NCBI GenBank assembly: GCA_035653615.1
Contig: DASRBN010000024.1
Span: 1 to 55,225 of the forward strand
DNA length: 55,225 nucleotides
From: Ktedonobacteraceae bacterium
GTDB lineage: Bacteria > Chloroflexota > Ktedonobacteria > Ktedonobacterales > Ktedonobacteraceae
Direction: 5' to 3'
The number at the start of each line of letters is the position of its first letter. Positions within the stretch are counted from its first letter, which is position 1. Below are positions 1 to 22,643 of this stretch, in pieces. The position numbers were made by a program, and so were the translations under genes. A model generated the notes under the pieces. It was not told the DNA's origin. It saw only the letters and a list, made by a program, of their open reading frames with translations, and ran no database searches.

Positions 1-1644
1 GCCATTTAGCCTGCTTTCTGCCTGTGGGTTAAGCAAATAGGGTATGAGGTTTCAATCCCTAACGGGCGTCCCAGGCCATTTAGCCATTTTTGCGGCGATT
101 TTCACGCATGAACATAGAGGAAAGTTTCAATCCCTAACGGGCGTCCCAGGCCATTTAGCCCGTCAAGAAGCAAGAGGTCAACAACAAGGGCAATCGTTTC
201 AATCCCTAACGGGCGTCCCAGGCCATTTAGCCCCTCTTGATGAAACAAGAAGCGATGAGGATAGAGAAGAGTTTCAATCCCTAACGGGCGTCCCAGGCCA
301 TTTAGCCCTACCAGGCCATCCAGCAGACCAACGCGGCCAACGGCGTTTCAATCCCTAACGGGCGTCCCAGGCCATTTAGCCATTATCGGCCTGCACAATC
401 CAGTTCTCCAGATCGGTGTTTCAATCCCTAACGGGCGTCCCAGGCCATTTAGCCTATACGCCCATTCCACCGCCTCCGCCGGTCAGCAAATCGTTTCAAT
501 CCCTAACGGGCGTCCCAGGCCATTTAGCCCGTATCACCGGCTGCCGAGTGCTTGCCATACAGCGAGAGTTTCAATCCCTAACGGGCGTCCCAGGCCATTT
601 AGCCGAAGCCGAAACAAGACGAAAACGGAAAGTATCTCCCTGTTTCAATCCCTAACGGGCGTCCCAGGCCATTTAGCCGAAAAGGCCGAATACGTACAGG
701 GTGAGGGCTACTTGGTTTCAATCCCTAACGGGCGTCCCAGGCCATTTAGCCCAAGCGTGTCTTCTCCGGCAATGCGCGTATCACGATCAGTTTCAATCCC
801 TAACGGGCGTCCCAGGCCATTTAGCCCCCATCGCTTGCCAGTTGAGCAGCCCCGGCGCGATGAGTTTCAATCCCTAACGGGCGTCCCAGGCCATTTAGCC
901 AACGATCAATAGCGGCGCGTCCGTTCGCTACGCCTATGTTTCAATCCCTAACGGGCGTCCCAGGCCATTTAGCCTCCAACAAAAATTGGCTTCTAATGCT
1001 CCCCTTGCTTTAGTTTCAATCCCTAACGGGCGTCCCAGGCCATTTAGCCTTTCATAGCAGTAATCCCCCTTTCGCACGCGCGCGCCGTTTCAATCCCTAA
1101 CGGGCGTCCCAGGCCATTTAGCCCTGGAGATGAAAACTGTGATCTGTTTGAGCGAGAAGGAGTTTCAATCCCTAACGGGCGTCCCAGGCCATTTAGCCTC
1201 ATCTTCGCTGCCAGCGCCGCCATCGACGTACTCAGTTTCAATCCCTAACGGGCGTCCCAGGCCATTTAGCCATAAACTCCGCTCACGACGGAAACAGGGC
1301 TTTTAATGGTTTCAATCCCTAACGGGCGTCCCAGGCCATTTAGCCCTCGTACCTGGCTTGTGCCTGTGCAGCAGATGGAGTGCGTTTCAATCCCTAACGG
1401 GCGTCCCAGGCCATTTAGCCTCGGCAAGGATAATCTCACTTCCGATATAGGGCACCGCAGTTTCAATCCCTAACGGGCGTCCCAGGCCATTTAGCCCTCA
1501 TCATGTGGTTTTGGATACACAAACAATTCGGAGTTTCAATCCCTAACGGGCGTCCCAGGCCATTTAGCCGGCGAGAGAGCGGCCCTGGGAACTTGAGAAT
1601 GGTTCTGGTTTCAATCCCTAACGGGCGTCCCAGGCCATTTAGCC
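1..1644 (-). CRISPR. Type I-D CRISPR array, 22 complete repeats plus one cut at the window edge
   Basis: A 37-nt repeat, beginning GTTTCAATCCCTAACGG and ending GGCCATTTAGCC on the plus strand, occurs 22 times in full (first 49-85, last 1608-1644) and once as its final 11 nt at 1-11. Spacers are 35-39 nt and all differ. No base change was noticed in any repeat by eye, including the leader-distal ones. The reverse complement ends in ATTGAAAC, the usual 8-nt crRNA 5' handle, so the array is read on the minus strand, as are the cas genes. The leader side is therefore on the right and the newest spacer should be 1570-1607. The array continues beyond the left edge. The neighbouring Csc1/Csc2/Cas10d genes assign it to type I-D. 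Confidence 0.98.
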
Positions 1645-5607: not shown

Positions 5608-6300
5608 TCACGCTGACTGCCGGTGACGATGATCTGGCTGGTAACTCATGCCCGCGGGCAGACGAACGATAGGCGCGTTTTTCTCCTCGCCGCATTTCAG
5701 TTCGTAGTAGCTGCCGGTAAAATGCGCGTTTGTAATCAGGCTGGCCGGAGCCATTGCCACGATATTGCAGTGTTCGGGCAGCTGCCCCAGGTCGAGTGGG
5801 TTGAGTGCGCCATTGGCGCGATAATCGCCCTGTTTGAGTTCCGCATAGCCCTCGCATGTAACTTCTACGTGTGCCTTCGCCATCCACTTGCCCAGGCGAA
5901 TCCAGCGCGGCAAACGCGGTTGTGACTCACTCAGCACAAAAAACTCAAAGGTACTCTCCGGCGCAAGCTCTTTCGCTCGCCCAAACACGACCTGGTTTGT
6001 ACTCACCTGGGGCGTGAAACTATAGTAGCGCACATTCGCCATTTTGAAGGTGTTGAACGAGAAGGTAGTGCGCAAGGGGTGGGCCGGTGTCACATACACC
6101 CCTTGCTCGTTCATCACCTGCAGGTCTTCCTGGTAGCGCGGCACCTGTACAGGATGCGCGTAGGGAGGCCTGACCAGGCCAAGCGCGTATGTCAGCCCGT
6201 AGTTATGCAGGTACTTTTCCGTCTCGTAGAGACGACCCATCTCACGCGAGGCATAGAAAAGGTAGTCATGCAGCTTCAGGCGACAAACGGTGATGAACAT
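5608..6300 (-). CDS. csc1: Type I-D Cas5 family protein Csc1
   Basis: 230 residues starting at the ATG at 6300, preceded by GGAGG at the proper distance; the longer reading frame upstream overlaps csc2 and has an arginine-rich, non-native look. The N-terminal part carries YLHNYGLTYALGL, a hallmark of Csc1, the Cas5-like subunit that caps the 5' handle end of crRNA in the type I-D complex. The gene begins 10 nt after csc2 ends, so the two are translationally coupled, matching the conserved csc2-csc1 order. Confidence 0.93.
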   Translation of the reverse strand: MFITVCRLKLHDYLFYASREMGRLYETEKYLHNYGLTYALGLVRPPYAHPVQVPRYQEDLQVMNEQGVYVTPAHPLRTTFSFNTFKMANVRYYSFTPQVSTNQVVFGRAKELAPESTFEFFVLSESQPRLPRWIRLGKWMAKAHVEVTCEGYAELKQGDYRANGALNPLDLGQLPEHCNIVAMAPASLITNAHFTGSYYELKCGEEKNAPIVRLPAGMSYQPDHRHRQSA

Positions 6301-6310
6301 GGGATACCTC

Positions 6311-7294
6311 CTACTTCCTGGCCTTCTCCTTCGAATCAACGCCATAGCTCTTCGCGTACTGCATGGTCTCGGTGTTCGCCTGCGCCAGCACGCGGCGCAA
6401 CTGCGATTCGTCGCTGGCAATCTGCGTAATCTCTTGCAACAGGCGATTCAGGCGCTCGCCCATAACGAGATTGGCTACCACTCCATCCTCCGCCAGCAGA
6501 TCAGGAATGACGGCCTGGGTAGAGGACAACACATCGGTCAGCGCAAGCGGCGTGCGCTTCAACTGATCCGGCGTCAGCGCGTCGTAAACGGCCTGCGTCA
6601 AGTGCAGATTGGAGAAAATTTCTCCATCGGCGAAGATTACGGCCATCATATGGTTTTCAACTGTGCCGGTACGTGTATTCTGCGCGCCATAACGCTTCGT
6701 GCGCAGAATATTGTTCAGCACATAGATAAACTCGGCCTCGGTCGGGTCCTTGATCGTCACTACTGATGGGAAGTACACCTGCGGCAGCACGTAATCCTGC
6801 TCGCCCAGCGCCGTCTTCATCTTACCACCCTCGCTCATCGTGCCATTTTCAAAAGGCGCGTTGAAGGTGAATTGCTGGTGCGACATATCATAACCGGTGA
6901 TCGAGAAAGCCGAATCGACCAGCACCTTGGAGCGTTCCGACCCCTCGCTGCCGATAGCAAAACCGTAGTAGATGCAGTCAGGGCAGCGTTTGCAGAACTT
7001 GTCCGAGTTGTATTCGCAGCTTTCGACCAGCCCATAGCGGCGCAGCAGTTCGCGGCCCGTCAGGCGCTCAGGCGTCGATTGCTTGCGCTTGAAAAGGACG
7101 ATGCGCGTCGCCTGGTCCTGGCTTTCGGCTTTCCGACCCTTGCTGACGCGGCTGATGTTCAGTTCGCCATCTGTCTGGAACAGCGCGAACGAGTTTGTCT
7201 CGCGCACAATCACGATATGCGCGTATTTGCCCATCGGCAGGCGCGGAATCTCACTATGAAAAACGTCCAGCGATTCGAGTGTGTTTAAGAACAT
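6311..7294 (-). CDS. csc2: Type I-D Cas7 family backbone protein Csc2
   Basis: 327 residues, the normal length for Csc2. The protein starts MFLNTLESLDVF and contains a cysteine cluster (C..C..C in FCKRCPDC plus an earlier Cys), the zinc-binding insertion known in this family, and the conserved region around ILRTKRYGAQNTRTG. Csc2 polymerises along the crRNA to form the backbone of the surveillance complex. It lies 36 nt after cas10d and just before csc1. Confidence 0.94.
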   Translation of the reverse strand: MFLNTLESLDVFHSEIPRLPMGKYAHIVIVRETNSFALFQTDGELNISRVSKGRKAESQDQATRIVLFKRKQSTPERLTGRELLRRYGLVESCEYNSDKFCKRCPDCIYYGFAIGSEGSERSKVLVDSAFSITGYDMSHQQFTFNAPFENGTMSEGGKMKTALGEQDYVLPQVYFPSVVTIKDPTEAEFIYVLNNILRTKRYGAQNTRTGTVENHMMAVIFADGEIFSNLHLTQAVYDALTPDQLKRTPLALTDVLSSTQAVIPDLLAEDGVVANLVMGERLNRLLQEITQIASDESQLRRVLAQANTETMQYAKSYGVDSKEKARK

Positions 7295-7330
7295 GGGTAA
7301 TTTCTCCTTCTTTCTTTGTACTTGATGATG

Positions 7331-10300
7331 CTACACGACAGCAGCCTCGGCTTCGGATTCCTCTTCCTCATCCTCAATGCGCTTCTGGTGAATCAGGTGC
7401 ATGTAATAGGCCTCGCAGCCATCCTTGAACTGGTTGATACGACTGCGCAGGACGCCACGTTCGCCCTGGCAATACTCCTTGAAGACAGCATTGTAGAAGT
7501 ATTGCACGAAAGCGCGAATAGCAGGCTCCTCCTTCTCGGTGATCTCCTTCCCATAAAACATCGCGCGGCCTGCTGCCTGCCGGCTACGCACGCGGTCAAG
7601 CCAGTTCTTGAGTTCGCCTTGAATCTGCCAGAGTAGATCGGCCTCCTCAATGTCAAGCGGGCTGTTAATAATTGCTTTGGCGACAATATCCACCGGTTTG
7701 AGAACGGAATGAGATTTCCATCCGCCCTGGTAGAAAACGGTGTAGAGGTCTACACATTTTTCGATTTTGCTCACATCTGCCTCCAATATCTCTGTATAGA
7801 TGTGCAAGTAGCGTTCTGCATCTTCGACACGGAACGAATCGCGGTTATCGCGCCGTTCCTGCTCGTGCAAGTAGCTGAACAACAATAACGGGTCGGTATC
7901 GAGGTCGCGGGCAATGGCGCTGAGATGCTGCCATTCGGGCTTGCCTCCCTTCGCATACGTATCCAGGTTGACGGTGTACAGGCTTGCCAGCAGCTTGAGC
8001 CGCGATTCAAGCCGGTTAACACGCAGGCGTTTACCTTTGAGCAGACGGTCAAGGTAGGGATGCGGCGCGTCGAATATGACCGTCTCGCGAAAATCGCGAC
8101 CGGATGAGAAGAGCGGCAGGGTCATCTCCGAGATCACGACTTTAGCACCGGTGATGAGCGGCAGCGCCAGCGCCAGGAACGCGGGCATCGCCCAGGCCGC
8201 CGAGTCCGTGTCATCGCTGGTCGCCTTCACACCAAACAAGCACATGCCGGGATAGCGTGATGGCTCATATTTGATGTACATGCGGTCGGAAGCCTTTGCC
8301 TGTACCGGTGCTGCTGATTCGCTTTCGTCCTCCTGCTCCAATTCGCTGTCATTTTCAACCAGTGCCGGGCGCAATTGGGCCGGTGGGGGTGCCTCAGCTT
8401 CCGCTGACTGGAAAGCATCGAGTTCCAGCAGCCTGGCCACGGTCAGATCATGGCCATTCAGTTCGCGCCGGATGGTGAAGAAGTTGATGCTCTGGAGCTG
8501 GTCGAGCACACCCTGTACAAGCGCGCCTGTTTCCGCCGTGAAGAAGAAATTGGGATAGACAGCCAGATATTTGGGCCGCAACCCCTCGAACTTCGAGCCG
8601 GTCAGCCGCAGCGTACCGCGCTGTAAGTTCTGTCGCAGCATCAATTCGAGCGAACAGATCGCGCAGACGCCGCCCGCGTTCTTCCCAGCATAGAGCGCGA
8701 GCTTGTTCTTGTAGACCCAGGGCTGGAACAACACCGCGTTATCCGATTGTTCATCGGTTGGGAAGGCGCTGTTGCAGAGCGTACAGATCAGTTCTTTGCC
8801 GCTCTTCTTTTTAGCACCAGCATACCGCTCCAACTCGGCAGCAAAATCGGGCAAGGCACTACCGGCAAGTACTGCTTTTGGCAATTCGACAATGCTGTTC
8901 AGGTAAGTGACAAGATGCGGCAAGTATTTTGGCGGCATCGCCTTGCGCAGCGGCTCCCCTGCCATCTCAATCACCATACGCAGGATCGACCGGAACACCG
9001 CCTCCAGATCGTTTTCACTCAAGCCAGGATGATCGTGGATATAGCAAAGACCGAGCCAGAACCAGCGATACTCTGTACCACCCTTGTTGGGAATGGCCTT
9101 CGATTGTTCCCAATAAGATGCCAGCCCCAGTTGCTCAACTACGACTTTCTCAACCGATGCGCGCAAAGCTTCCTGCTTCTTGTCGAGCCTGCCCAGCAGC
9201 GACAAGAAAACGATCGAGAGGAAACGGCTCATCATACCCGCGCGCACATCAGGTCTGAGATTCAAATCGATATCCGCCGGAATCTCCCCTCGTGCCTGCA
9301 TCTGGCGCAACTTCTCCAGCGGACCCGCTGTGATATCGCCGCGCGTGATGTTGACGGTGAAGCGTGCCAGCAACTCAGCGTAGTCTTCGAGCGAGAGAAA
9401 GTCGAAGTAATAGTCGGGATGCTTCACGATGCCCTTGTTGTCGAACTTGAAACCCGGCGCTCCATTCTTGATCCTGGGCGCGCATATCTCTCGCAGTCGA
9501 TTCTGTGCCACCTCCACAATCTGCTCCCTGCTAATGGCCAGGGATAACTTCTTGCGCGTGATGTACACGACGCCATCCGAGAAGAACAGGTAGGGCCAGA
9601 TGCCGCCGCGCCTCCCATCATCCGTGTAGAGACTGACAAGGCTATCGTTGATGACATTGCTGAGCAGACCGCGCACCTCGCGCAGTTGATGATAGCTAAA
9701 GACCAGTTCGCCGTCGCTCAACTCTCCCAGGATACGATTCAGCTTACGCGCGTCATCTGACGAGAGAATCGCCGAGGGCATGGGTACCAGGTAAGCGATG
9801 CAGTCGGAATAGGTGCAGAGACTGCGCAATTCCAGAATGCGACGTTCCGGCAGCCGCAGATGCCACCCGTAGGTAATCAGGTGCGTCCCCCACTGCTCCT
9901 GTGTATTGACGACGAGGTAGGCGATATCCTCCAGGTAGGCGCGCCAGTCAGGGAAAAAGGCATCCGCGCCGCACTGCTCTAATTCGCCGGCAATCACTCC
10001 CTTCGCTTCCTCGATTGCCGCGCGCGTGCGTGTTTCGAGGTCGCGAATATTGAGAATCTTGTTGACATCGTGCATCAGGTAGGCCAGGATATACACCCGG
10101 CGCTCGATAGCCGAATAGGGCGCAATCGCAAGGTCTTCCGCCTCCAGAATATTGAGCAGGCGCAGCGCGGGAAAGATGCCGTTCAGCTGGTGACTCAGCA
10201 TACTCTGATCATCTTTTTCCTCAAATGTGCGCTTCGTTCGCTCATCATACATATCATCCCTGGCGTGATCGCCGCCCTTGGCCGATTTATCGCTGTAATG

Positions 10301-10393
10301 CACGATCAGCTGTGGAACCATTGTTTCTACAAACGCGCGCGTCACCTCGTCGCCAGGATCGACGGCGCGCAACAGAAAATCACGAATAAACAT
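7331..10393 (-). CDS. cas10d: Type I-D large subunit Cas10d (Csc3) with HD nuclease domain
   Basis: 1020 residues. An N-terminal HD domain is visible with H68 (LSHQL) and H108-D109 in LMHDVNKIL; in type I-D the nuclease HD sits on Cas10d rather than on Cas3. A CxxC...CxxC zinc finger (ICTLCN and CAICS) lies around residues 550-600. No GGDD cyclase motif is seen, as expected for this subtype. The C-terminus is rich in acidic residues. AGGGG precedes the start. It follows cas3' by 48 nt and precedes csc2. It should supply the target-cleaving activity of the complex. Confidence 0.94.
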   Translation of the reverse strand: MFIRDFLLRAVDPGDEVTRAFVETMVPQLIVHYSDKSAKGGDHARDDMYDERTKRTFEEKDDQSMLSHQLNGIFPALRLLNILEAEDLAIAPYSAIERRVYILAYLMHDVNKILNIRDLETRTRAAIEEAKGVIAGELEQCGADAFFPDWRAYLEDIAYLVVNTQEQWGTHLITYGWHLRLPERRILELRSLCTYSDCIAYLVPMPSAILSSDDARKLNRILGELSDGELVFSYHQLREVRGLLSNVINDSLVSLYTDDGRRGGIWPYLFFSDGVVYITRKKLSLAISREQIVEVAQNRLREICAPRIKNGAPGFKFDNKGIVKHPDYYFDFLSLEDYAELLARFTVNITRGDITAGPLEKLRQMQARGEIPADIDLNLRPDVRAGMMSRFLSIVFLSLLGRLDKKQEALRASVEKVVVEQLGLASYWEQSKAIPNKGGTEYRWFWLGLCYIHDHPGLSENDLEAVFRSILRMVIEMAGEPLRKAMPPKYLPHLVTYLNSIVELPKAVLAGSALPDFAAELERYAGAKKKSGKELICTLCNSAFPTDEQSDNAVLFQPWVYKNKLALYAGKNAGGVCAICSLELMLRQNLQRGTLRLTGSKFEGLRPKYLAVYPNFFFTAETGALVQGVLDQLQSINFFTIRRELNGHDLTVARLLELDAFQSAEAEAPPPAQLRPALVENDSELEQEDESESAAPVQAKASDRMYIKYEPSRYPGMCLFGVKATSDDTDSAAWAMPAFLALALPLITGAKVVISEMTLPLFSSGRDFRETVIFDAPHPYLDRLLKGKRLRVNRLESRLKLLASLYTVNLDTYAKGGKPEWQHLSAIARDLDTDPLLLFSYLHEQERRDNRDSFRVEDAERYLHIYTEILEADVSKIEKCVDLYTVFYQGGWKSHSVLKPVDIVAKAIINSPLDIEEADLLWQIQGELKNWLDRVRSRQAAGRAMFYGKEITEKEEPAIRAFVQYFYNAVFKEYCQGERGVLRSRINQFKDGCEAYYMHLIHQKRIEDEEEESEAEAAVV

Positions 10394-10441
10394 TGAACAT
10401 AACCCCTGCCTTTCACTACATCGATTTCAGAGAAAAATTGT

Positions 10442-12481
10442 TTACATGCCCTTGTTTTTCTGCCACGAGAATAGCGAGTCCAACAGCAACGCCTCCTGCC
10501 CGAAGGCGACGGAATATCTCTCGCCGGTCACATCCTGCACGCACTGGATCGGGAAAAGCGCGGGCAGGTTCAACTTTCGTTTGAGTTCCGCCCGTGGCAT
10601 GGCGCTGAACACACACACGAGCTTTTTGGCCTTGAGCGATTTGTTGACGCGATCCCGCCAGGTAAACGCCGGTTCCTGGATGAAGAAACCGTTTAGTTCG
10701 AGCGCCTGGTGCATGATCTGCGGCTGGCCGCCCAGGTCTATATTCAAACCCAGCACGAGGCGCTGGCTCTCAGGGATATACCGGTGTATCTTCAGATAGA
10801 GCAATGATTCGCGGAAATCGCGCTCGTAGACCTGCTCCTGGCCCAACTGTATACGCCTCCTGACCTCGCTCATAAACTCCGCTTCGGTCATGGATTCGAT
10901 TTCCGTATTGGCAACCAGGAAAAAGAGATCGTATGTTTTGAGATGATCATCCACGTCCCAGACGGCACAGGAAAGCGGACTCTGGCCGCGGAAGCTGCTC
11001 AACTCGGCCACGATTTCAGGAGCATTTTTTTGTAAGTACGAGAATTGTTTGAGCTTCTTGGGCATGATCGGCTGCTCGGGCGAACCATAGAGCCGCTCGT
11101 ATTCATCCGTCAGGGCGGCCACGAATTCGTCGTTGGCATCCTTCCTGCCCTCGCTTTGTAGGGCTGCCAGCACCTGCGCGGCCTGCATCACACCCCAGCG
11201 CCGCGTGTAGCCCGAAAATTCCGCCTCCAACGGGAAAGCTGAGCGCACCGCCATGTTGAAGCTTTCGCGGTCAACCTCACTCTCCGCCTGTAGTTTGCTC
11301 TGCAATCGTTCCAGCACAAAGCGCGGAACCAGCGCGAACGCGCGATACGCATCAAAGTCCGCGTGCCGCCCCAGGCGCCCAAAACGCTGCAAGAACGAGC
11401 CAGCATTAGACGCCTCGAAGATGAGATAGTTGATGCGAAAATCGACACCGATATCGACGGTCGATGTCCCGACCAGGATTTGCTTTTTAAGGGCTTCGCG
11501 CCGGTCGTCTCGATACGTCAATCCTGTATTTTCTCCAACGGTAATGCCATTCTGCTTCTCAAAGAAATCGTAGAGGCGCGCATATAAACGGCGCGCGGTC
11601 GCTACCGAATATACCAGGATGGCCGCTTTGGATTTTGGATACTGGTGAAAGAACGCCAATATCTCCTCCAGGTGTTCCTCGACCCATACCTCGATAGGTC
11701 TCTCCTGGCTCAGTTCATGCAGTTCCAGTTCGCAAGGCTGCAAGATGCGGCGATATCCATCCTTGTCTGTTGAGCTATATGTACCCTCGACCGTTCTCAC
11801 ACGCAATCCACTATTTTGCAGCAAAGTATTCATAAGCTTATTGGGGGTGGCCGAGAGGAAGACGAATTTCTTGCGCAACTCCGGCCTCTCCTGGTAATTG
11901 ACCGCCAGGTAGCCGAGCATATTCATCACATTGATAATCTGCGGCACGCCAAAGACGTGAAACTCATCGAAGATAAAGTAATCAAAGTTCGCGGAGAGCA
12001 GCGTGGGCAGTTCTTTGCGCAAATAATCCCACCCATATTGATGGCTCATAATCAGGTGAACGAGGTCAGGATTGGTCAGCAGGATCGGGTTGCGCCTCAA
12101 CAAACCCCTCACCGCATGAAGTCGCGCAGCGATATCGCGCTCCTGCATAATGCGCGTGATCTCCTGGCCATACATCAAGGCATTGCGCGGCAGGGTAATA
12201 CCCAATCGCTCTTCATAATGTGGAAGCGCAACGAACTGATCCTGGATCAATTCGTTGGTGGGATACATGGCGATGGCCGCTTTCCTATCCCGGAAGACCG
12301 GCAAATACGCCGCCAGGCTCTTGCCATCACCCGTCATGGCCACATTGAAGATGACATCGACTTCAGAGTCTCGAAATGCTTCCCATGTTTCGACCTGGTG
12401 CTTCAACAAATGTATATCGCCAATCTGAGCGCCAGCATATTCTTCGGAATAGACAGGTAGAATTTTCAAATCCAACTTCAT
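10442..12481 (-). CDS. cas3: Type I-D Cas3' helicase lacking an HD domain
   Basis: 679 residues with superfamily 2 helicase motifs: Walker A in AMTGDGKS (residues 48-55), a DEFH box in IFDEFHVFG, the SAT motif in FLSATPNK, and motif VI as QRFGRLGRH. No HD nuclease domain is present at either end, matching Cas3d of type I-D, where the HD lies on Cas10d. It would unwind DNA after target recognition. AAGGGA stands 6 nt before the ATG. The gene lies 74 nt downstream of the WYL regulator. Confidence 0.92.
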   Translation of the reverse strand: MKLDLKILPVYSEEYAGAQIGDIHLLKHQVETWEAFRDSEVDVIFNVAMTGDGKSLAAYLPVFRDRKAAIAMYPTNELIQDQFVALPHYEERLGITLPRNALMYGQEITRIMQERDIAARLHAVRGLLRRNPILLTNPDLVHLIMSHQYGWDYLRKELPTLLSANFDYFIFDEFHVFGVPQIINVMNMLGYLAVNYQERPELRKKFVFLSATPNKLMNTLLQNSGLRVRTVEGTYSSTDKDGYRRILQPCELELHELSQERPIEVWVEEHLEEILAFFHQYPKSKAAILVYSVATARRLYARLYDFFEKQNGITVGENTGLTYRDDRREALKKQILVGTSTVDIGVDFRINYLIFEASNAGSFLQRFGRLGRHADFDAYRAFALVPRFVLERLQSKLQAESEVDRESFNMAVRSAFPLEAEFSGYTRRWGVMQAAQVLAALQSEGRKDANDEFVAALTDEYERLYGSPEQPIMPKKLKQFSYLQKNAPEIVAELSSFRGQSPLSCAVWDVDDHLKTYDLFFLVANTEIESMTEAEFMSEVRRRIQLGQEQVYERDFRESLLYLKIHRYIPESQRLVLGLNIDLGGQPQIMHQALELNGFFIQEPAFTWRDRVNKSLKAKKLVCVFSAMPRAELKRKLNLPALFPIQCVQDVTGERYSVAFGQEALLLDSLFSWQKNKGM

Positions 12482-12555: not shown

Positions 12556-13629
12556 TTACTGCTCTTCATACATCCTATACATACTTCCCGCGCTCTCCCG
12601 CATCATTGCCACCAGTTCCGGCGGCTCCAGCGCCCGCACCTGCTCGCCGTAGCCTGATAGCAGGCGCCTGGCCCACCAGAGCGAGCGCGCGGTTCCCTCC
12701 ACAATTGCCCCGCCGTCGTTCTCTAACATCGTGACTTGCTGGTCGCGCAGGCGGGCGCTCAGGCTGCCATGGCGGGCCAGCATGGGTGAGACCCAGTAGC
12801 GTATCCTCACACCGGGGCGGCGGCGATTCCCCGGCAAAAAGCGATCCTTGTCGAGAGAGAGCGAGCCGGGCTGGATGCGATCCACACGATAATCCAGAAA
12901 GGTATTCAGGTCGCGCACGTAGGCCGTGAAGTACCAGTGACCATCGCGATATTCGAGCTCGTATGGCTCTACTCGTTCATGTGTTACCGTTTCCCCCGCC
13001 AGCGGAGTGTAGGCAAACGAAACATACGCGCCATCTTCCAGCGCCTGGTCTAACGCCAGGATGATCTCGGTATGCCGGCTGTAATCCACGACCGGCGATA
13101 ATGGCAGTTGCACCGGGTGCGCGCGGCGCTTGCGCTTCTGTTGCACCAGCCGGCGGCTTTTCTCGCTGAATAGCCACTCCCAGCGCCTCAACAAATGCTG
13201 CACGGCCCCGGCATACGGCGTGCCGGGCGAAAATCCCTCCTGCAGGGCCGCGAAAGCTCGCGCCTCCTCCTCGCTGATATCTATCGCGAACAGCGAACGT
13301 TCCAGGCCAAAGGTACCCTTTTCACGGTCATAGCTGATCGCCATGAAGCCCCGCTGCTGCTGACCGGCGCACCATTCGTCCAATCCCTCACTATCCGGTT
13401 CCGGCAATTCCTCGACATAGCAGCCGGTAAGCGTTGCCAGGTCACGGTACAGCGCCGGGACGGGCGTCTCTCCATAGAACGAGGAAAGCTTTTTGATGAT
13501 CTCCTCTTTTGACAGGCGCTGCGGCCAGTAGGTGTGAAACAATACGGCCAGCAGCACTGTGCGCCATGCCTTGTCCCTGCTTGCGCGTTTACCTCTCGCG
13601 AACCGCTCGCTCGAAGCCTCCCTGTCCAT
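12556..13629 (-). CDS. WYL-domain transcriptional regulator of the CRISPR locus
   Basis: 357 residues. An N-terminal winged-helix region (about 20-80, with LSKEEIIKKL and ALYRDLATLTG) is followed by a WYL domain at about 190-260, whose conserved stretch reads EYRDGHWYFTAYVRDLNTF. WYL domains are thought to sense nucleotide ligands; related proteins regulate CRISPR and other defence operons. GGAAAGG precedes the ATG. Being first in the block with cas3' and the effector genes, it likely controls their transcription, probably as a repressor. The 242-bp gap before it (13630-13871) is where its own promoter is expected, but no clear -35/-10 pair is seen there. Confidence 0.88.
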   Translation of the reverse strand: MDREASSERFARGKRASRDKAWRTVLLAVLFHTYWPQRLSKEEIIKKLSSFYGETPVPALYRDLATLTGCYVEELPEPDSEGLDEWCAGQQQRGFMAISYDREKGTFGLERSLFAIDISEEEARAFAALQEGFSPGTPYAGAVQHLLRRWEWLFSEKSRRLVQQKRKRRAHPVQLPLSPVVDYSRHTEIILALDQALEDGAYVSFAYTPLAGETVTHERVEPYELEYRDGHWYFTAYVRDLNTFLDYRVDRIQPGSLSLDKDRFLPGNRRRPGVRIRYWVSPMLARHGSLSARLRDQQVTMLENDGGAIVEGTARSLWWARRLLSGYGEQVRALEPPELVAMMRESAGSMYRMYEEQ

Positions 13630-13871: not shown

Positions 13872-14177
13872 CTACACCACAAACAACAGCTCTTCCTCCG
13901 GCGGCGGGCCACCAACCGTTTCAACGCGCGCTACACAGTTCGCGCACAAGGGATAAAAGCGCACGCTGTCCTCCTGTGGAACCAGGTGTTCCGCCAGCTT
14001 TGAACGCAGCAGGATGAGCTGCTTTTTGGTCAGGAAGCACTCGAACAGCGAGTATTGCGTCCACTTGCCAAAGCCCAGCAGGGTTTTATGAATGCGCGTG
14101 CGCCGGCGGTCGTCTGGAATATCGTAGGCGACGACGTAGCAGGTCACATCATCGCTCACTTTTGCGCTGTTTTTCAT
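13872..14177 (-). CDS. cas2: Cas2 adaptation protein
   Basis: 101 residues from the ATG at 14177, which has GAGAGGAAAT just upstream; a longer frame starting at 14252 is less likely. The first beta strand carries YDIPDDRRR with D19 in the metal position, followed by the RIHKTLLGFG..TQYSLFE region typical of Cas2. With Cas1 it forms the integrase that inserts new spacers. It is separated from cas1 by about 200 bp containing an inverted repeat, so the two are not tightly coupled. Confidence 0.95.
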   Translation of the reverse strand: MKNSAKVSDDVTCYVVAYDIPDDRRRTRIHKTLLGFGKWTQYSLFECFLTKKQLILLRSKLAEHLVPQEDSVRFYPLCANCVARVETVGGPPPEEELLFVV

Positions 14178-14258
14178 GTTGATTTCCTCTCCCGATCTCC
14201 ATCGTTGAGCGGTGCCGATAATGAACTTTGCCAATCCAAAACGCTCATACAAGCGGCC

Positions 14259-14374: not shown

Positions 14375-15472
14375 TTATCTGACCACGAATGGTGGATATT
14401 CGTTGATTTCGCCGGTCAGAAATTTGGCCACGAGCCGCGTCTGCAATTCGATGCAGCGCCGGTAGGTTACCTGGTAGCCGAAGATGGGATGCTGGATTTC
14501 TTCGCGCATGCGCTCCTCAAACTGCGTGAAGAAGATCTTGCGCTTCTCGTCCTTGAGGCGGTACGCGCCTAATTCAACCACGAAGTCGTTTGCTGTCAAC
14601 ATGCGCTTGTTGAGCAGGCTCAGCACCACGGAATCGACGATGATCGGGCGAAATTCTTCCATGATATCCAGCGCCAGGGCGGGACGGCCATAGAAGGAAC
14701 TGTGCAGGTAGCCAACGAAATGATCGAAGCCGACCAGTTGGACGGCGCTGGCAACCTGGTTAGTGAGCATGGCATAGCCGAAACTGAGCAGCGCGTTCAC
14801 CGGATCGGTGGGCGGGCGCTTGATACGCTTCTCGAAAGGCCATTGCTCCGGGTCCGACAGCAGCTTGCCGAAACACTGGAAATAGGCCGCGCTGCCCGCC
14901 CCTTCCATGCCAAGGATCGATTCGAGAGGCGTTCCCTCGACCCGATTGTCGCCAGTAGCCAGCGCGCGAGTTGAGGTCGCCGTATCTACCGGTAACGCGT
15001 GCAGTTGAGAAAGCAGACCGGCAATCTGGTCGATGGCCTGGCTCATTTCGCTATCGGACTGGCGACGATTGTAGCGTTGCAGCATCGTGCGTTGATTCGA
15101 GAGCTTGCCGATCACAAAGCGTCGCGCCAGCTCGCAGCGCCGCGCCATATCGTTATGCGCGCGGTACTGCGCCATACGCAAAATCGCGTTCTTTGAGAGC
15201 GACGGTGAAAGGCGGCCCTTGAATTTACCAAAATGGGTCAGGAAGTTGATCTCGATGTTGTGGTCCAGCAATAAGTGGAGCGCCGAGGCCGTTAATGTCA
15301 CCTCGCCCATTACCACGACATCATCGATTTTCACCAGCGGAATGCGTTCATTGCGGGCAGGCGCAGGGGCCATGCCGTCTTTCCCGCGCCTCTCAGGAAT
15401 CTGTACCAGCAGGCAATCTTCGGTATCGCGGCGCACCAGGGCGCGGTTTTCTGTCAGGTAGAGTGTTGGCAT
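14375..15472 (-). CDS. cas1: Cas1 integrase
   Basis: 365 residues. The catalytic residues are recognisable as E190 (MEGAGSAAYF), H257 (GYLHSSFYGRP) and the acidic pair E272/E273 in DIMEEFRP. The NALLSFGYAML stretch is typical of Cas1. It catalyses spacer integration with Cas2. AAAGGA stands 8 nt before the ATG. It follows cas4 by 43 nt, giving the cas4-cas1-cas2 order expected of type I-D adaptation modules. Confidence 0.96.
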   Translation of the reverse strand: MPTLYLTENRALVRRDTEDCLLVQIPERRGKDGMAPAPARNERIPLVKIDDVVVMGEVTLTASALHLLLDHNIEINFLTHFGKFKGRLSPSLSKNAILRMAQYRAHNDMARRCELARRFVIGKLSNQRTMLQRYNRRQSDSEMSQAIDQIAGLLSQLHALPVDTATSTRALATGDNRVEGTPLESILGMEGAGSAAYFQCFGKLLSDPEQWPFEKRIKRPPTDPVNALLSFGYAMLTNQVASAVQLVGFDHFVGYLHSSFYGRPALALDIMEEFRPIIVDSVVLSLLNKRMLTANDFVVELGAYRLKDEKRKIFFTQFEERMREEIQHPIFGYQVTYRRCIELQTRLVAKFLTGEINEYPPFVVR

Positions 15473-15515: not shown

Positions 15516-16133
15516 TTACGAGCGGGTTCTCGCTTGCAACATCCTGACTTCCTCCGGCATGCAGAGGGGCTGGAGACTGCATTTGGGGCAGCGCGCAGTC
15601 AGCGGGCCGTCGAGCGGCGGTGGCACTGTCTCCTGGGTCGAGAGCGCGAAAGCGCGCGCGATTGTATTGAGGGTTTGCTGGCGCAGTTCTGGCGTGAAGT
15701 CGATCTGCACGCGCCGCCGCGAGCCGATGTAGTAGATGTAGCCGTGAGAAATTGGCGCTTTGCCCGCCTGCCTTTCCTCGAGGCACAGCGCCTGAGCGCA
15801 GAGTTGTATTGAGTCGTTGAGCCATTGCCCCTGCCGTCCATGTTTGTATTCAACCGGAACCAGCATGCCATCTTGTTCCTCGATCACGTCGGCAAAGCCG
15901 GAGAGGTGCAGCGATTCGCTGAACAGGTATAGATGCGTCGTCTGTATTTCGCCCTCGCGCGTGGTTTCTTTCCCATGCTGGTGTACGTGCTCGTGCTGCA
16001 ACGTGCCTTCGAGCACGTATTCGTTGACCAGCATATCGCACTGGACATACTCGTAGTAAAAACGGCGCGGGCAGTATTGCAGGGTATTGAGAGACGAGAT
16101 CGAGACAGAATCAGGCGCCATCCGGGTGGTCAT
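15516..16133 (-). CDS. cas4: Cas4 family exonuclease
   Basis: 205 residues. An N-terminal cysteine in LQYCPRRFYYEYVQ and a C-terminal cluster (RCPKCSLQPLC) make the four-cysteine iron-sulfur site of Cas4. The central VPVEYKHGRQG holds the E-x-K of the PD-(D/E)XK nuclease fold. Cas4 trims prespacers and sets their PAM and orientation. GGAGG lies 7 nt before the ATG. It lies between herA and cas1 in the same direction. Confidence 0.94.
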   Translation of the reverse strand: MTTRMAPDSVSISSLNTLQYCPRRFYYEYVQCDMLVNEYVLEGTLQHEHVHQHGKETTREGEIQTTHLYLFSESLHLSGFADVIEEQDGMLVPVEYKHGRQGQWLNDSIQLCAQALCLEERQAGKAPISHGYIYYIGSRRRVQIDFTPELRQQTLNTIARAFALSTQETVPPPLDGPLTARCPKCSLQPLCMPEEVRMLQARTRS

Positions 16134-16184: not shown

Positions 16185-18047
<1,863 letters not shown>

Positions 18048-18063
18048 GAGGAGTGCCTCCTTC

Positions 18064-19302
18064 TTATCTCGTCTCGCGCTCTCCAAGGTAGCGGAATGGC
18101 TCGCCGGCCTCGGCATAGGCCTGCTGGATCATGCTTTGAAATGTACCTGCGCCAAAGGTGGAGCGGCAGATCATATCCGCCAGGTCGATCAGCATTGGAA
18201 AGCCGCGATGTTCTTGCAGCACGCTATCGGCCATTACAATCAGGGCCGCCAGGTGCGCGCAATCGCGATGCGCGTAAAACATGCGCACCGGCGCCTGGGC
18301 CGATGCCCTGTACACGCCGATCACGATTTGCGGCCCCAGTTCCTCCACGAACTCCCGCACACGCGCCTTCAGCCCTGTCTGCACGGGCAGGTTCCCGCTC
18401 GCGATATCGCGCATCGATTGCAGCGGCGTGTCGACCAGCGCGAATTCAAGCGGGTCGAGCGCATCGCCCAGCGTAAGCCAGACACGATCAGCGGGCGCGC
18501 TTACCACAAACACCCAGCGTTTATGCTCCATCAGCAGTCCGCGCCACATCTTCATACTGTATTCCAGCAGCGGCATCTGTTTGTTGATGACCAGCCCTCC
18601 TCCGGTCAGCAATTCATAAGGCACAGGATGTCCGTGGCCCATACGCCATACCGCCTGCGATTTATGCAGCAGGATAGCGCGTTCCGCGTAAATCATGATG
18701 CCGCGCTGGGTGAAATCGCTGAGCCGGTCGCGCGTGCTTTGTGTCGCGTCGGTGCTGTCGCGCTTCCTGCGCTGTTCGAGCAAAGCGATGGCTTCATTAA
18801 TCGGATCAACGCCGCCCATACGCAGGTCGCGGCGATACAGGCGATGCAACCAGGTACCCGCGTCCCCCTGGTACGAGACAAGCGAAACGCCTATCTGCGC
18901 CAGCGTAATCGGCAGCGTATCGTGAATCGTACTCGTCCCATCGCACGCCTCGACGCCGCCATTGAAGAGTAGCCCACGGTGAATCTGCTCGATGGTTGAT
19001 ACATCGACCTTGTAACACCCGGCATTTTCAGGCGCCTGTGGATGTTTGAAGGCCTTCGGGAACAGCTCCGAGCGGATTCGTTCGCGAATTCTTCCACCCT
19101 GCTTTACCGCGTCCGCGACCTCGCGCTCGAGTTTCGCGTACATATCCGCGAGATCTTCTCCCAGTCGCCAGGTATCGATATCGAGCGTTTGATCCACCGA
19201 TTCCCCGAAGGCCGCCTGGAACTCGTCGCCTCTCATTGCCAGGGCATGATCCTGACCGGCATCATCCGGCGGATGTTTGTCAGCTGCCTGGTCGTTTTGC
19301 AT
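18064..19302 (-). CDS. NurA-like 5'-3' nuclease partner of HerA
   Basis: 412 residues. The NurA-domain hallmark aspartate is D121 in EACDGTSTIHDTLPITLAQIG; a second conserved region near the C-terminus (FPMLIDLADMICRSTFGAG) fits the end of the NurA domain. In archaea and some bacteria NurA and HerA form a DNA-resecting complex; HerA paired with nucleases also acts in phage defence. The assignment rests on the DGT motif, length and pairing with HerA. The start at 19302 is uncertain because no strong ribosome site precedes it; an ATG at residue 23 is an alternative. Confidence 0.75.
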   Translation of the reverse strand: MQNDQAADKHPPDDAGQDHALAMRGDEFQAAFGESVDQTLDIDTWRLGEDLADMYAKLEREVADAVKQGGRIRERIRSELFPKAFKHPQAPENAGCYKVDVSTIEQIHRGLLFNGGVEACDGTSTIHDTLPITLAQIGVSLVSYQGDAGTWLHRLYRRDLRMGGVDPINEAIALLEQRRKRDSTDATQSTRDRLSDFTQRGIMIYAERAILLHKSQAVWRMGHGHPVPYELLTGGGLVINKQMPLLEYSMKMWRGLLMEHKRWVFVVSAPADRVWLTLGDALDPLEFALVDTPLQSMRDIASGNLPVQTGLKARVREFVEELGPQIVIGVYRASAQAPVRMFYAHRDCAHLAALIVMADSVLQEHRGFPMLIDLADMICRSTFGAGTFQSMIQQAYAEAGEPFRYLGERETR

Positions 19303-19382: not shown

Positions 19383-20144
19383 TTAGAAAATTTCATCCCC
19401 TGTTGCAAAAAGCCAGTCATGCACACCCGATTCTCCTAGTTGTGCAAGGATATAACGGGCATAAGCATCCGCAATCGCCGCCGGTAAACCATATGTGCCC
19501 AGTAACTGCTGCGTTAAAAAGGACAGCCGCCTGTTAAAACCACGCGGAGCTGCCGGCGTACCCATCATCTCCTGCAAGGATGAGGCGGGCGCGAGCAATT
19601 CCAGGGCAAGACGGTCGGCGCGATTCTCGACATCAAGTACAATCGACTCCGGCAGGCCATCGTCTGGCCGCTCCATGAAATGACTCATTGTGCCCAGCGA
19701 AACATTGCTGAGAACGGCGTGGACGCGTTCCGATATCGTGGGCGGGCGGTCGCCATTCAACACGGGCAGAATGGAAGGCCCAAGAATCATGACCGCCCGC
19801 CGGCGCGGAGCCTGGTAATCGAGCAAGAAATGCGCCAGTTCGTGCGCCAGGGTGAAACGCTGCTCATCTTCGGAGTCGCCGGCATCGTAAAAAATAGTCC
19901 CTTTATCTCTATCGGCCAGCAGGCACCCGTGCAGGCGGCGATTATGCCCTGGCATGGAATAGGCAATGCCCACTTTCTGTGTCCATTCCAGCACATCGGC
20001 AACGCGCAATCCGGGAACACCGTATAGCTCAAGCGGCATCGTCAGCGTGATCGCCATTTTGATATCGCAGGGATAGCCGGGCGCTTCTCCCGCGAGCGCC
20101 CAGAATTCCTGCGCCGTATTCTCGATGAGAAAAGCGCTATTCAT
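19383..20144 (-). CDS. ImmA/IrrE family zinc metallopeptidase
   Basis: 253 residues from the ATG at 20144, which overlaps the stop of the preceding gene by 8 nt. The zinc motif HELAHF (H101, E102, H105) in RFTLAHELAHFLLDY is the ImmA/IrrE signature. Such proteases cut a partner HTH repressor or anti-sigma protein in response to stress; here the likely substrate is the acidic 128-residue protein encoded just upstream. The nurA-like gene follows after 80 nt, so the protease set may control the HerA-NurA-cas operon. Confidence 0.88.
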   Translation of the reverse strand: MNSAFLIENTAQEFWALAGEAPGYPCDIKMAITLTMPLELYGVPGLRVADVLEWTQKVGIAYSMPGHNRRLHGCLLADRDKGTIFYDAGDSEDEQRFTLAHELAHFLLDYQAPRRRAVMILGPSILPVLNGDRPPTISERVHAVLSNVSLGTMSHFMERPDDGLPESIVLDVENRADRLALELLAPASSLQEMMGTPAAPRGFNRRLSFLTQQLLGTYGLPAAIADAYARYILAQLGESGVHDWLFATGDEIF

Positions 20145-20523
20145 CACCTGGCCCGGCCTCATCTTCTTCATTGTCATCTTCATAATCGCGCGCGGCCAGC
20201 AATGCTGGCAGCGTAGCATTCTGCCTGGAACTGAGCGCCTCTCGCGACTCGGCAGCGCGGATCAGCAGCGCCAGTTGTATCGCATCGGCACCAATATAGC
20301 TGGCGATGCGCTCAACGTCCTGGCGAAAATGAGGAGCCGGTCGCGGGCGCTCGCAGAGAGCCAGCTTTGGCAGCGCCTCAATATCGCATCCCAACTTAGC
20401 CGCGAGCTGCTGATCATCCAGCCCCTCCTGCTCTGAATAGAGAGCAAGCGGCCCGGCCAGCAAATTGGGGCGTCCTTGTGCAAGCAATGCCAGGCGCTCG
20501 AGAGATGGATGTTTGGAATTCAT
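20137..20523 (-). CDS. Small acidic HTH-like protein, possible protease substrate
   Basis: 128 residues, not matched to a named family with certainty. The segment LDDQQLAAKLGCDIEALPKLALCERP resembles the helix-turn-helix of XRE-type regulators. The C-terminus is strongly acidic (YEDDNEEDEAGPGDE). The gene overlaps the sigma factor by 4 nt (ATGA) and the ImmA/IrrE gene by 8 nt, so all three are translated together. A DNA-binding or sigma-binding partner of the protease is inferred. Confidence 0.6.
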   Translation of the reverse strand: MNSKHPSLERLALLAQGRPNLLAGPLALYSEQEGLDDQQLAAKLGCDIEALPKLALCERPRPAPHFRQDVERIASYIGADAIQLALLIRAAESREALSSRQNATLPALLAARDYEDDNEEDEAGPGDE

Positions 20524-21149
20524 GAAAGTTTCCCTCCTGTACGTTGAAGCTCTTGTTTGACGTGGCGGCGTAATCGCTTCGTGATGCGATTTTTTGCCAG
20601 TTGAACCTGTTTGAGACGCTCATCTTCGGGCTGGTCACTGAGTCCCAATGCGCGAGCATATGGCTCTGGCGAGCGAATCCCATTCATGAGCAGGGTCACG
20701 ATTCGACGTTCGATGGCATCGGGAAATGCCTGGCTGATGATCTGCATAAGCGCTTCCGCCTCCAACAGCCCCTCTACCATATCCGCGATTCCCAGGCTAC
20801 CGGCAATGTCCTGCTCTTGAAAACTGGGATCGAAGATGGATACCTGGCGCTTTGTGGTACGATGTTCTTTGGCCCGCGCATTGAGGAAATCACGATAGGC
20901 GGCCATAACCAGGTAACTATGCAAACCGGCACGCGCCGGATCATAGCTTTCCGGCTTATCATGATAATCCAGTAGCGCCTGGCCGACGGCCTCTTCAACA
21001 AGCGCGGAATCCGCATAGCTGCCCGCGCGCCTGCCTACATCCTGCACGAGTGAAGCATAGAATGCCTCGGCAAGCTGCGCAAAGGCAACCGGGTCATCCC
21101 TGGCGAGAATTCGTTGGTGAAAGTCATATTCTTGTGCTGTTGCTTTCAT
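20520..21149 (-). CDS. Sigma-70 family (ECF-like) RNA polymerase sigma factor
   Basis: 209 residues. The N-terminal half looks like sigma region 2 (RDDPVAFAQLAEAFY through SYLVMAAYRDFLNARAKEHR) and the C-terminal half like region 4 (IERRIVTLLMNG..., ending with a basic helix NRITKRLRRHVKQEL). An insertion-rich linker lies between them. The ATG follows AAGGAG and the gene overlaps the downstream HTH-like gene by 4 nt. It probably drives transcription of its own operon and perhaps of downstream nurA-herA-cas genes. It is divergent from textbook ECF factors. Confidence 0.75.
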   Translation of the reverse strand: MKATAQEYDFHQRILARDDPVAFAQLAEAFYASLVQDVGRRAGSYADSALVEEAVGQALLDYHDKPESYDPARAGLHSYLVMAAYRDFLNARAKEHRTTKRQVSIFDPSFQEQDIAGSLGIADMVEGLLEAEALMQIISQAFPDAIERRIVTLLMNGIRSPEPYARALGLSDQPEDERLKQVQLAKNRITKRLRRHVKQELQRTGGKLS

Positions 21150-21180: not shown

Positions 21181-21207
21181 TCTGCTATATGTTGTTCCCA
21201 TAGCAGA
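21181..21207. promoter_or_regulatory. Palindromic operator candidate upstream of the sigma/HTH/protease genes
   Basis: Perfect 8-bp arms TCTGCTAT (21181-21188) and ATAGCAGA (21200-21207) with an 11-nt spacer lie 32-58 nt before the sigma factor start. On the minus strand the spacer contains GGGAAC, similar to the -35 of ECF promoters. This could be a self-control site for the sigma factor or the HTH-like protein. Confidence 0.45.
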
Positions 21208-21236
21208 GCCGGCTTTGGACAAAACGACGAAAAATT

Positions 21237-22643
21237 TCATCTTTTCTTGAACACCAGCACATACTCTTCGGGATAGGCGCGCACATCGCTTTGCGCGGTC
21301 GAGGAGAAACGCCCGGACTTTTTATCGCGCGTACTCACCAGCACGCGCGCAGGCACCTTGCGTACAATCCTGCGTTCCAGGTCCAGTCCAACCTGGGCGG
21401 CCATCTCACAGAGTCCCTGCGCGGTCGGAATAGTAATACCACGGCGATAAGAATCGCCAACAACCAGCACCAGGTACTTGCCAGGAATAGTGACCCGCGC
21501 CATCTCGCCCATGGCAAGAGACATATCTTGAAAATAGTGTTGCAGGGCGCGCACCTCGCGATGCACCGTCTGCGTCAACGATCCGCTTGCCAGCAGTGAC
21601 AGTTCGGCCAGCGCCGCATCGACACTGGTCGAACCGGTTTGCAGCAAGGTAAACTGTTTCGACGACGCGCGATGAGAAACGCCTTTCGAGCCAATCCATG
21701 CTTCCTCTCCAGCAGGAACAATACCATATCGCTCGAACCAGAGCTGCGTGAGCTGGTGAATCTCTTTGTATTCGTAGCAGGTAGCATAGGGCGGGCTGGT
21801 AACAAGCAGGTCAAGCGAGGCATCAGGCAAGCTAAGTTGCCGCACATCTTCATGCGCAATACGGCAGCGATCTCCTATTGCAACCGGGTCGAGTCCGCGT
21901 TGCTCGATATCCTGCCAGTAGAGGCGATTGCGCTTCAGCATATCGCGTACCTGCCTGCGAAACTCATCGGCGGGGTCGCCCAGCACTTTATGAACATCTT
22001 TCTGTGCCTTGGTGCTGCCACTGAGCCAGGTGGAACAGCGCCGCAAAATATTGGAAAAGCCGCACAGGAAGAACGCGCGCGCGTCGCCCTCGCTATACAA
22101 AAGAATGCGTTGCAGAATAGCCGCGAGGCTCTCGCGATACGGCAATGGAAACCAGTAGGTGAGGCGTTCTTCTGCGCTGGCATGAGCGCTATCAATAGCC
22201 TTGATCGCCTCGATTTCAGAATCTGTCAAATGCCGCCTGCCAATGCGAGGAACCCCGTCAAGCTGAGCCTCAAGCGCTGTCCAGGCCGTCAAAAGGTTAG
22301 AAGGAACAAGCGGGCGACATTTAGCGCGGCTGATGAGCAGGGCAACCGCGTTGATATCCGCGCCCCAGAAACGCCTGCCAGCGCGCAGGGCCTCGATTCC
22401 GGTCGTCCCTGAACCAACAAACGGGTCGCCGACAAGCTCGCCAGGAGCAGAATAGGCTTCGATGAGCCGTCGCACGAGTTGCGGAATGAATTTGGCGGGA
22501 TAGCGATGATAGCCATGCGGCCCCCACAAGGTCTCCTCGCGCGTCAAATGCGCGAAAGACCAGTCTTCTTCTGAGGGATCTTCTTGATTGTCAAATAAGG
22601 GATAGCTCTCTCCGGTAAGATACACTTTTTGCGCCATAGCCAT
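21237..22643 (-). CDS. DNA methyltransferase, N4-cytosine/N6-adenine type
   Basis: 468 residues. The AdoMet-binding motif I is DPFVGSGTTG (about residue 75) and the catalytic motif IV is TSPPY (about 285), followed by the C-terminal motif VVGDSYRRG. The N-terminal HGYHRYPAKFIPQLV is shared by a group of stand-alone methylases. The order IV after I fits the beta or N4 class. No restriction subunit is adjacent, so it is solitary or protects the host DNA from the nearby nucleases. AAGGGG precedes the ATG. A promoter lies directly upstream. Confidence 0.88.
   Translation of the reverse strand: MAMAQKVYLTGESYPLFDNQEDPSEEDWSFAHLTREETLWGPHGYHRYPAKFIPQLVRRLIEAYSAPGELVGDPFVGSGTTGIEALRAGRRFWGADINAVALLISRAKCRPLVPSNLLTAWTALEAQLDGVPRIGRRHLTDSEIEAIKAIDSAHASAEERLTYWFPLPYRESLAAILQRILLYSEGDARAFFLCGFSNILRRCSTWLSGSTKAQKDVHKVLGDPADEFRRQVRDMLKRNRLYWQDIEQRGLDPVAIGDRCRIAHEDVRQLSLPDASLDLLVTSPPYATCYEYKEIHQLTQLWFERYGIVPAGEEAWIGSKGVSHRASSKQFTLLQTGSTSVDAALAELSLLASGSLTQTVHREVRALQHYFQDMSLAMGEMARVTIPGKYLVLVVGDSYRRGITIPTAQGLCEMAAQVGLDLERRIVRKVPARVLVSTRDKKSGRFSSTAQSDVRAYPEEYVLVFKKR

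Follow-up and report, generated by a model that had tools for sequence, protein, structure and literature searches.

How bacteria time the acquisition of new CRISPR spacers is an open question, and most known control of cas genes is exerted by global or local regulators. A locus in which genes for a sigma factor, a small helix-turn-helix (HTH) protein and an ImmA/IrrE-family protease precede herA and a type I-D CRISPR-cas operon raises the question of whether these three genes form a control unit, and of what. The locus lies in a 55,225-nt stretch of Ktedonobacteraceae DNA (the whole stretch analysed, hereafter the window). A sequence-only reading of it had proposed that the protease cleaves the small protein, and that the sigma factor thereby released switches on the defence genes downstream.

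Overlapping genes for a sigma factor, an HTH-like protein and a metalloprotease

The trio and its immediate neighbours in the window are the following:

21237..22643, minus strand: N6/N4 DNA methyltransferase (domain match), a frequent but not constant neighbour
20520..21149, minus strand: ECF-type sigma factor, 209 aa, sigma2-linker-sigma4 (Pfam, PDB profile, predicted fold)
20137..20523, minus strand: small HTH protein of the XRE-like kind (128 aa); a conserved AARD motif lies close to the acidic tail at its C-terminus
19383..20144, minus strand: ImmA/IrrE (M78) metalloprotease, CapP-like (Pfam, conserved zinc site)
18064..19302, minus strand: NurA-position gene, 412 aa, candidate nuclease by its place before HerA
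16185..18116, minus strand: HerA ATPase/helicase (Pfam, match to a solved HerA)

The gene arrangement first described from the letters alone was recovered in full: the sigma stop and the small-protein start overlap by 4 nt (20520-20523), the protease gene starts at 20144 within the final 8 nt of the HTH gene, and 80 nt separate the protease gene from the NurA-position gene. The 8-nt overlap is also kept in L033, the nearest relative of the window locus. This layout supports the view that the three proteins are made together.

For the window sigma factor by itself, the Pfam match to Sigma70_r2 is weak (E=0.02), and the assignment becomes firm once relatives, profile and model are added. Sigma70_r2 was matched in 17 of 21 sigma relatives (best E-value 4.9e-7), while the family profile retrieved solved ECF sigma factors from the PDB with both domains covered (E=9.7e-10). 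The predicted model (pLDDT 87.6) yielded a structural match list consisting of sigma factors throughout, and its region 2 superimposed on sigmaE with a Z score of 11.7 (1.9 Å over 91 residues). Profile and model agree on a sigma fold with the sigma2 and sigma4 domains only, as in ECF sigma factors, and the original call of a sigma factor is borne out.

The protease contains an M78/IrrE domain (Pfam, E=2.7e-8) with an HExxH zinc site. Residues H101, E102 and H105 are invariant in 20 members, and HExxH with a downstream Glu was found in all aligned family members. For the small protein, Pfam matches were sub-threshold and no match was found in NCBIfam or PADLOC. Structure prediction gave an XRE-like HTH followed by a disordered acidic tail, near which the AARD motif is invariant; its initial description as HTH-like agrees with the XRE-type fold of this model.

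The trio belongs to a five-gene module in three phyla

Relatives of the protease were sought in 400 Chloroflexota genomes, in 396 genomes from the phylum to which an acidobacterial match belongs and in 195 from that of the Myxococcus matches. The 61 loci read lie in three phyla, and type I-D was seen again in L033. The order sigma-HTH-protease on one strand was found in 61/61 loci, far beyond chance. Most loci come from metagenome-assembled genomes, and loci from one genus, or from Myxococcota, do not count independently. Wherever the contig continues past the trio, the NurA-position gene comes next (58/58), then HerA (55/55). An independent search of the 400 Chloroflexota genomes with the NurA-position protein identified the same carriers as the protease, bar one distant match and a single carrier in which the contig breaks off after the trio. 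Since the trio, the NurA-position gene and HerA are constant companions, they constitute a five-gene module rather than a trio that stands beside CRISPR genes by accident.

The expectation of a HerA-NurA pair downstream of the trio held for HerA, which is matched by Pfam DUF87 (2e-20) and by the solved HerA 4d2i; the name NurA reflects the position before HerA, and that protein had no match in Pfam, PADLOC or a PDB profile search. Its 15 aligned relatives share many invariant residues despite the absent database matches, and the Myxococcota proteins at this position do not have the aspartate of the conserved DGT motif.

CRISPR-cas genes are frequent but not obligatory neighbours

In the window, herA is followed by a type I-D system with cas10d, csc1, csc2, cas3 and a cas1 of the I-D type:

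15516..16133, minus strand: cas4, 51 nt after herA
14375..15472, minus strand: cas1 (type I-D)
13872..14252, minus strand: cas2
5608..12481, minus strand: cas3, cas10d/csc3, csc2 and csc1 (type I-D interference genes)
48..1626, no strand assigned: CRISPR array, 22 repeats seen, reaching the contig edge

Between cas2 and cas3 of this operon lies a gene for a WYL/WCX-domain protein (12556-13629), possibly a second, separate regulator of the interference genes.

Outside Myxococcota, 7 of 16 loci have cas genes directly after HerA and co-directional with it, and no cas genes were found upstream. These systems are of type I-D (window and L033), I-A-like (L043, L046 and L047), III-B (L048) and I-B/MYXAN (L065, an acidobacterium), and CRISPR arrays occur within or next to the window, L043, L046 and L065. 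The other 9 of the 16 loci have no adjacent cas genes, and none were found near the Myxococcota loci (about 40). The idea that the trio is a CRISPR-specific control device was therefore not upheld, as the sigma-HTH-ImmA-NurA-HerA block stands without cas genes in Myxococcota. Outside that phylum the trio was not found mostly away from defence genes, so that its association with defence stands while its exclusive tie to CRISPR does not.

These distributions bear on a reading in which the methyltransferase, HerA and its partner nuclease, with regulators of their own, make up a self-contained system for defence or DNA repair, and the module's closeness to CRISPR genes only reflects clustering in defence islands. 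A DNA methyltransferase adjoins the module in 14 non-Myxococcota loci, in either orientation, cas genes are missing from the nine loci and from all Myxococcota loci mentioned above, and other defence genes (PsyrTA-like) can occupy the place of cas. We nevertheless regard this reading as unlikely, because the cas genes lie only downstream and are co-directional in 7/7 cases, and because the module's own promoter-like motif recurs in cas operons, some of them on separate contigs (see below).

Some neighbourhoods carry further genes of note. The methyltransferase of the window (21237-22643) looks like an orphan. In L038 (13497-17632), the genes after HerA encode a PsyrT-like protein, in which an N-terminal RNase H is combined with helicase and phosphoribosyltransferase-like parts, and a PsyrA-like DprA-family protein. 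In L039 (13709-17604), a full sigma-70 factor (regions 2-4), the second sigma factor in that neighbourhood, and an MrfA-like helicase come after HerA.

A conserved promoter-like motif precedes the NurA-position gene or the sigma gene

The gap between the protease and NurA-position genes contains a bipartite promoter-like motif, TGTCGAACTT-N12/13-GGAA (TGTCGmACTT-N12/13-GGAA as written for this gap). It is present in 16 of 18 Chloroflexota and Acidobacteriota loci, against 0.24 expected over all loci; in two of these 16 the gap is closed and the motif lies within the 3' end of the protease gene. The gap is closed in Myxococcota, and 35/40 loci there have a close variant of the motif (GTCGAACTC-N13-CGAA) 75-92 nt before the sigma gene (1.0 expected). 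The window and L033, its nearest relative, have the motif before both sigma and nurA. The window sites, both diverged copies, are:

21190..21221, minus strand: promoter-like motif before the sigma gene (TGTCCAAAGCCGGCTCTGCTATGGGAACAACA), conserved at 295-326 of L033
19345..19376, minus strand: promoter-like motif in the ImmA-NurA gap (TGTCAAAATAAACACAGGAGTCGGGAATGTAG), a diverged form with a leave-one-out score of 10.7

Across the window genome (G000), the family-specific pattern gave five matches, of which only the two module sites were convincing. Before or just after herA, the motif occurs at background level only. A pattern with an N13-14 spacer missed most true sites, and N12-13 was used.

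A copy of the motif inside the Myxococcota sigma gene might have been a coincidence of coding. This was rejected, since codon choice at these sites is skewed (CTT in 18/24 versus 70/589, GTC in 23/24 versus 97/304), which means that the motif is held at the DNA level.

The conserved two-element motif fits a dedicated promoter of an ECF sigma factor, and we infer that the module's own sigma factor reads it. The earlier proposal that the sigma factor switches on the genes 80 nt downstream is thus plausible, as a conserved ECF-like promoter motif lies in exactly that gap. The motif could instead be the operator of the HTH protein, with the sigma factor acting elsewhere, and the HTH gene is indeed as constant in the module as the sigma gene. 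This we consider highly improbable: the motif is asymmetric, has a fixed length of 26-27 nt and an ECF-like -35 element (GAACTT), its spacer shows no palindromic excess over shuffled sequences, and it is found about 20-35 nt before the starts of cas6 and cas2. A palindromic operator in the spacer was rejected on the same absence of any excess over shuffles.

The motif recurs before cas operons elsewhere in module-bearing genomes

A strict pattern of the motif was scanned over 28 whole genomes. The 16 module carriers yielded 26 matches, 20 of them in the module, five in cas operons and one elsewhere, and the eight relatives lacking the module yielded none with this pattern; G299, which has a remote protease match only, gave three. 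Since a reversed control pattern gave 14 matches in the same genomes, the argument rests on the placement of the motif and not on the total number of matches. The cas sites score 18-28, and in Markov sequence false positives at a score of at least 18 occur at 0.24 per Mb-strand. The identity of the cas genes at the motif sites was verified:

G182: 18 nt before cas6-cas2-cas4-csa1
G081: 22 nt before cas2-cas4-csa1
G217: immediately ahead of cas2-cas4-csa1, with an array, on a different contig from the module
G112: between cas6 and cas1-cas3-cas8a, on a different contig
G140 (L114 / L183, G140:C148): inside the cse1 coding sequence, upstream of cse2; the weakest case

The strong copy inside cse1 of the type I-E operon in G140 may be an internal promoter or a coincidence.

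With the same motif before cas operons of other module-bearing genomes, in part on other contigs, the link from the sigma factor to cas genes is well supported, and the control of cas genes envisaged from the window sequence is strengthened. In the window, no motif was found in the 51-nt gap between herA and cas4, so that cas4-cas1-cas2 would depend on read-through. The sequence-only reading can therefore be followed in part: its control of cas genes by the sigma factor is supported, its restriction to CRISPR is not.

Is the small protein an anti-sigma factor or a repressor?

In the model proposed from the window sequence, the small protein is an anti-sigma factor that binds the sigma factor, which is freed when the protease cuts its partner. 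Co-encoded sigma/anti-sigma pairs often overlap, and the sigma and small-protein genes do so by a few nucleotides in most loci. The invariant AARD motif near the disordered tail also suits this model, as does the finding that no palindromic operator was detected upstream of sigma in Chloroflexota. On the other side stand the XRE-type HTH fold of the protein, with the CapH DNA-binding domain as its best, though weak, structural match, and the structure lists, in which no resemblance to known anti-sigma folds surfaced, although the absence of an anti-sigma-like match there does not prove that none exists. Moreover, the Myxococcota loci have a palindrome upstream of sigma of the kind that a dimeric repressor would need: TACC-N8-GGTA is present in 31/41 loci, mostly 146-163 nt before the gene, against 0.11 expected. 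The anti-sigma model is accordingly possible but doubtful; HTH fold and palindrome suit a DNA-binding repressor no less than a protein that holds the sigma factor.

Upstream of sigma in L015/L016 and L067-L104, the conserved TACC-N8-GGTA is directly followed by CAGACA, with CAACCT about 17 nt further on. Such an arrangement could mean that an operator overlies a housekeeping promoter.

The module resembles ECF sigma/anti-sigma systems in its two-domain sigma fold, the ECF-like spacing of the promoter-like motif and, in some loci, the motif before its own gene. It differs in that the partner is an XRE-like HTH protein together with a soluble zinc protease, and not a membrane or zinc anti-sigma factor.

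Comparison with known systems

In the PBSX prophage of Bacillus, an XRE repressor occurs together with an ImmA-like protease and a sigma-like activator. DdrO of Deinococcus has a genome-wide palindromic operator and is induced by DNA damage, and its unit is not known to include a sigma factor. The IrrE/PprI-DdrO system shares with the module a metalloprotease and an XRE-type partner (PMC10904395). In Myxococcus xanthus proteomics, the ECF sigma factor MXAN_4535 and the HerA-like helicase MXAN_4539 fall after mitomycin C (PMC12288472). Judged from gene order only, these two genes most likely represent the operon described here, and their fall argues against simple induction by mitomycin C or DNA damage; in this the module differs from IrrE-DdrO.

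In CapH and CapP, an HTH repressor and an ssDNA-activated protease control adjacent immune operons through repressor cleavage (PMC13373217). The likeness is that genes for an HTH protein and an ImmA/IrrE-family protease stand just upstream of defence genes. The protease is homologous to CapP (PADLOC capP, 5.7e-10; PDB 7t5t, E=3e-4, the only solved relative of its profile). For the HTH protein, the N-terminal DNA-binding domain of CapH was the top but weak structural match (Foldseek E 0.24, Z 4.5), with no match to the CapH sequence family and no CapH-like second domain seen. Unlike CapH/CapP, the module adds a sigma factor with a putative sigma-type promoter that also precedes operons elsewhere, and it is linked to HerA and CRISPR genes.

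Csa3a and Csa3b of Sulfolobus are CRISPR-linked regulators that act on csa1/cas adaptation genes; they also act on DNA-repair genes, nurA-herA among them (PMC7480081). They are, however, archaeal CARF-HTH factors that involve neither a sigma factor nor a protease, and Csa3b binds a cyclic oligoadenylate analogue (PMC7480081). The nurA-csm6-herA clusters of Pyrobaculum likewise tie nurA-herA to CRISPR loci (PMC3396285), NurA/HerA are listed among putative CRISPR auxiliary genes (PMC10910872), and a role in spacer acquisition has been proposed for nurA-herA at CRISPR loci (PMC3396285, PMC10910872). Those cases differ in being archaeal or unspecified, and no control unit of sigma factor, HTH protein and protease is reported for them. 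In the open-licence literature searched, we found no sigma-protease-HerA system, no link of an ECF sigma factor to CRISPR and no CRISPR locus switched by a sigma/HTH/protease unit, in line with the initial impression that no CRISPR locus controlled in this manner had been described.

A proposed switch and its implications

We propose that the five-gene module is probably a switch, gated by the protease and amplified by the sigma factor, that governs DNA-end processing and CRISPR adaptation, with the trio as its control unit. The sigma factor would bring RNA polymerase to the dedicated promoter before nurA-herA and, in several genomes, to the same promoter before the adaptation genes cas2-cas4-csa1 or cas6-cas2-cas4-csa1; in the window, transcription of cas4-cas1-cas2 would start at the nurA promoter and run through herA. 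On the model of CapH/CapP and DdrO/IrrE, the HTH protein would be the brake and the protease the release, destroying the HTH protein upon a signal, which the same analogies would lead one to expect to be invader DNA or exposed ssDNA. Where the motif precedes its own gene, the sigma factor would amplify itself. The output during an attack would be more DNA-end-processing enzyme and more spacer-acquisition machinery.

The wider proposal is an inducible immunisation regulon of bacteria, spanning at least four CRISPR types and two phyla. An ImmA/IrrE-type protease would act on an XRE-like protein and so release or derepress a dedicated ECF sigma factor, and this factor would turn on HerA, the partner of HerA and CRISPR spacer acquisition together. 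We hold its chances to be evenly balanced.

What is new here is a promoter-like motif that occurs almost only within the five-gene block and before CRISPR genes. Because the motif names the target genes and the protease names the signal step, this self-contained sigma/HTH/protease unit makes the question of when new spacers are acquired directly testable, and Myxococcus xanthus relatives have the core operon in a host amenable to experiment. HerA has long been suspected to aid CRISPR adaptation in archaea; if the proposal is true, shared control would tie HerA to the adaptation genes of bacteria. Our findings suggest that some bacteria switch on the making of new CRISPR memory when a protease is triggered.
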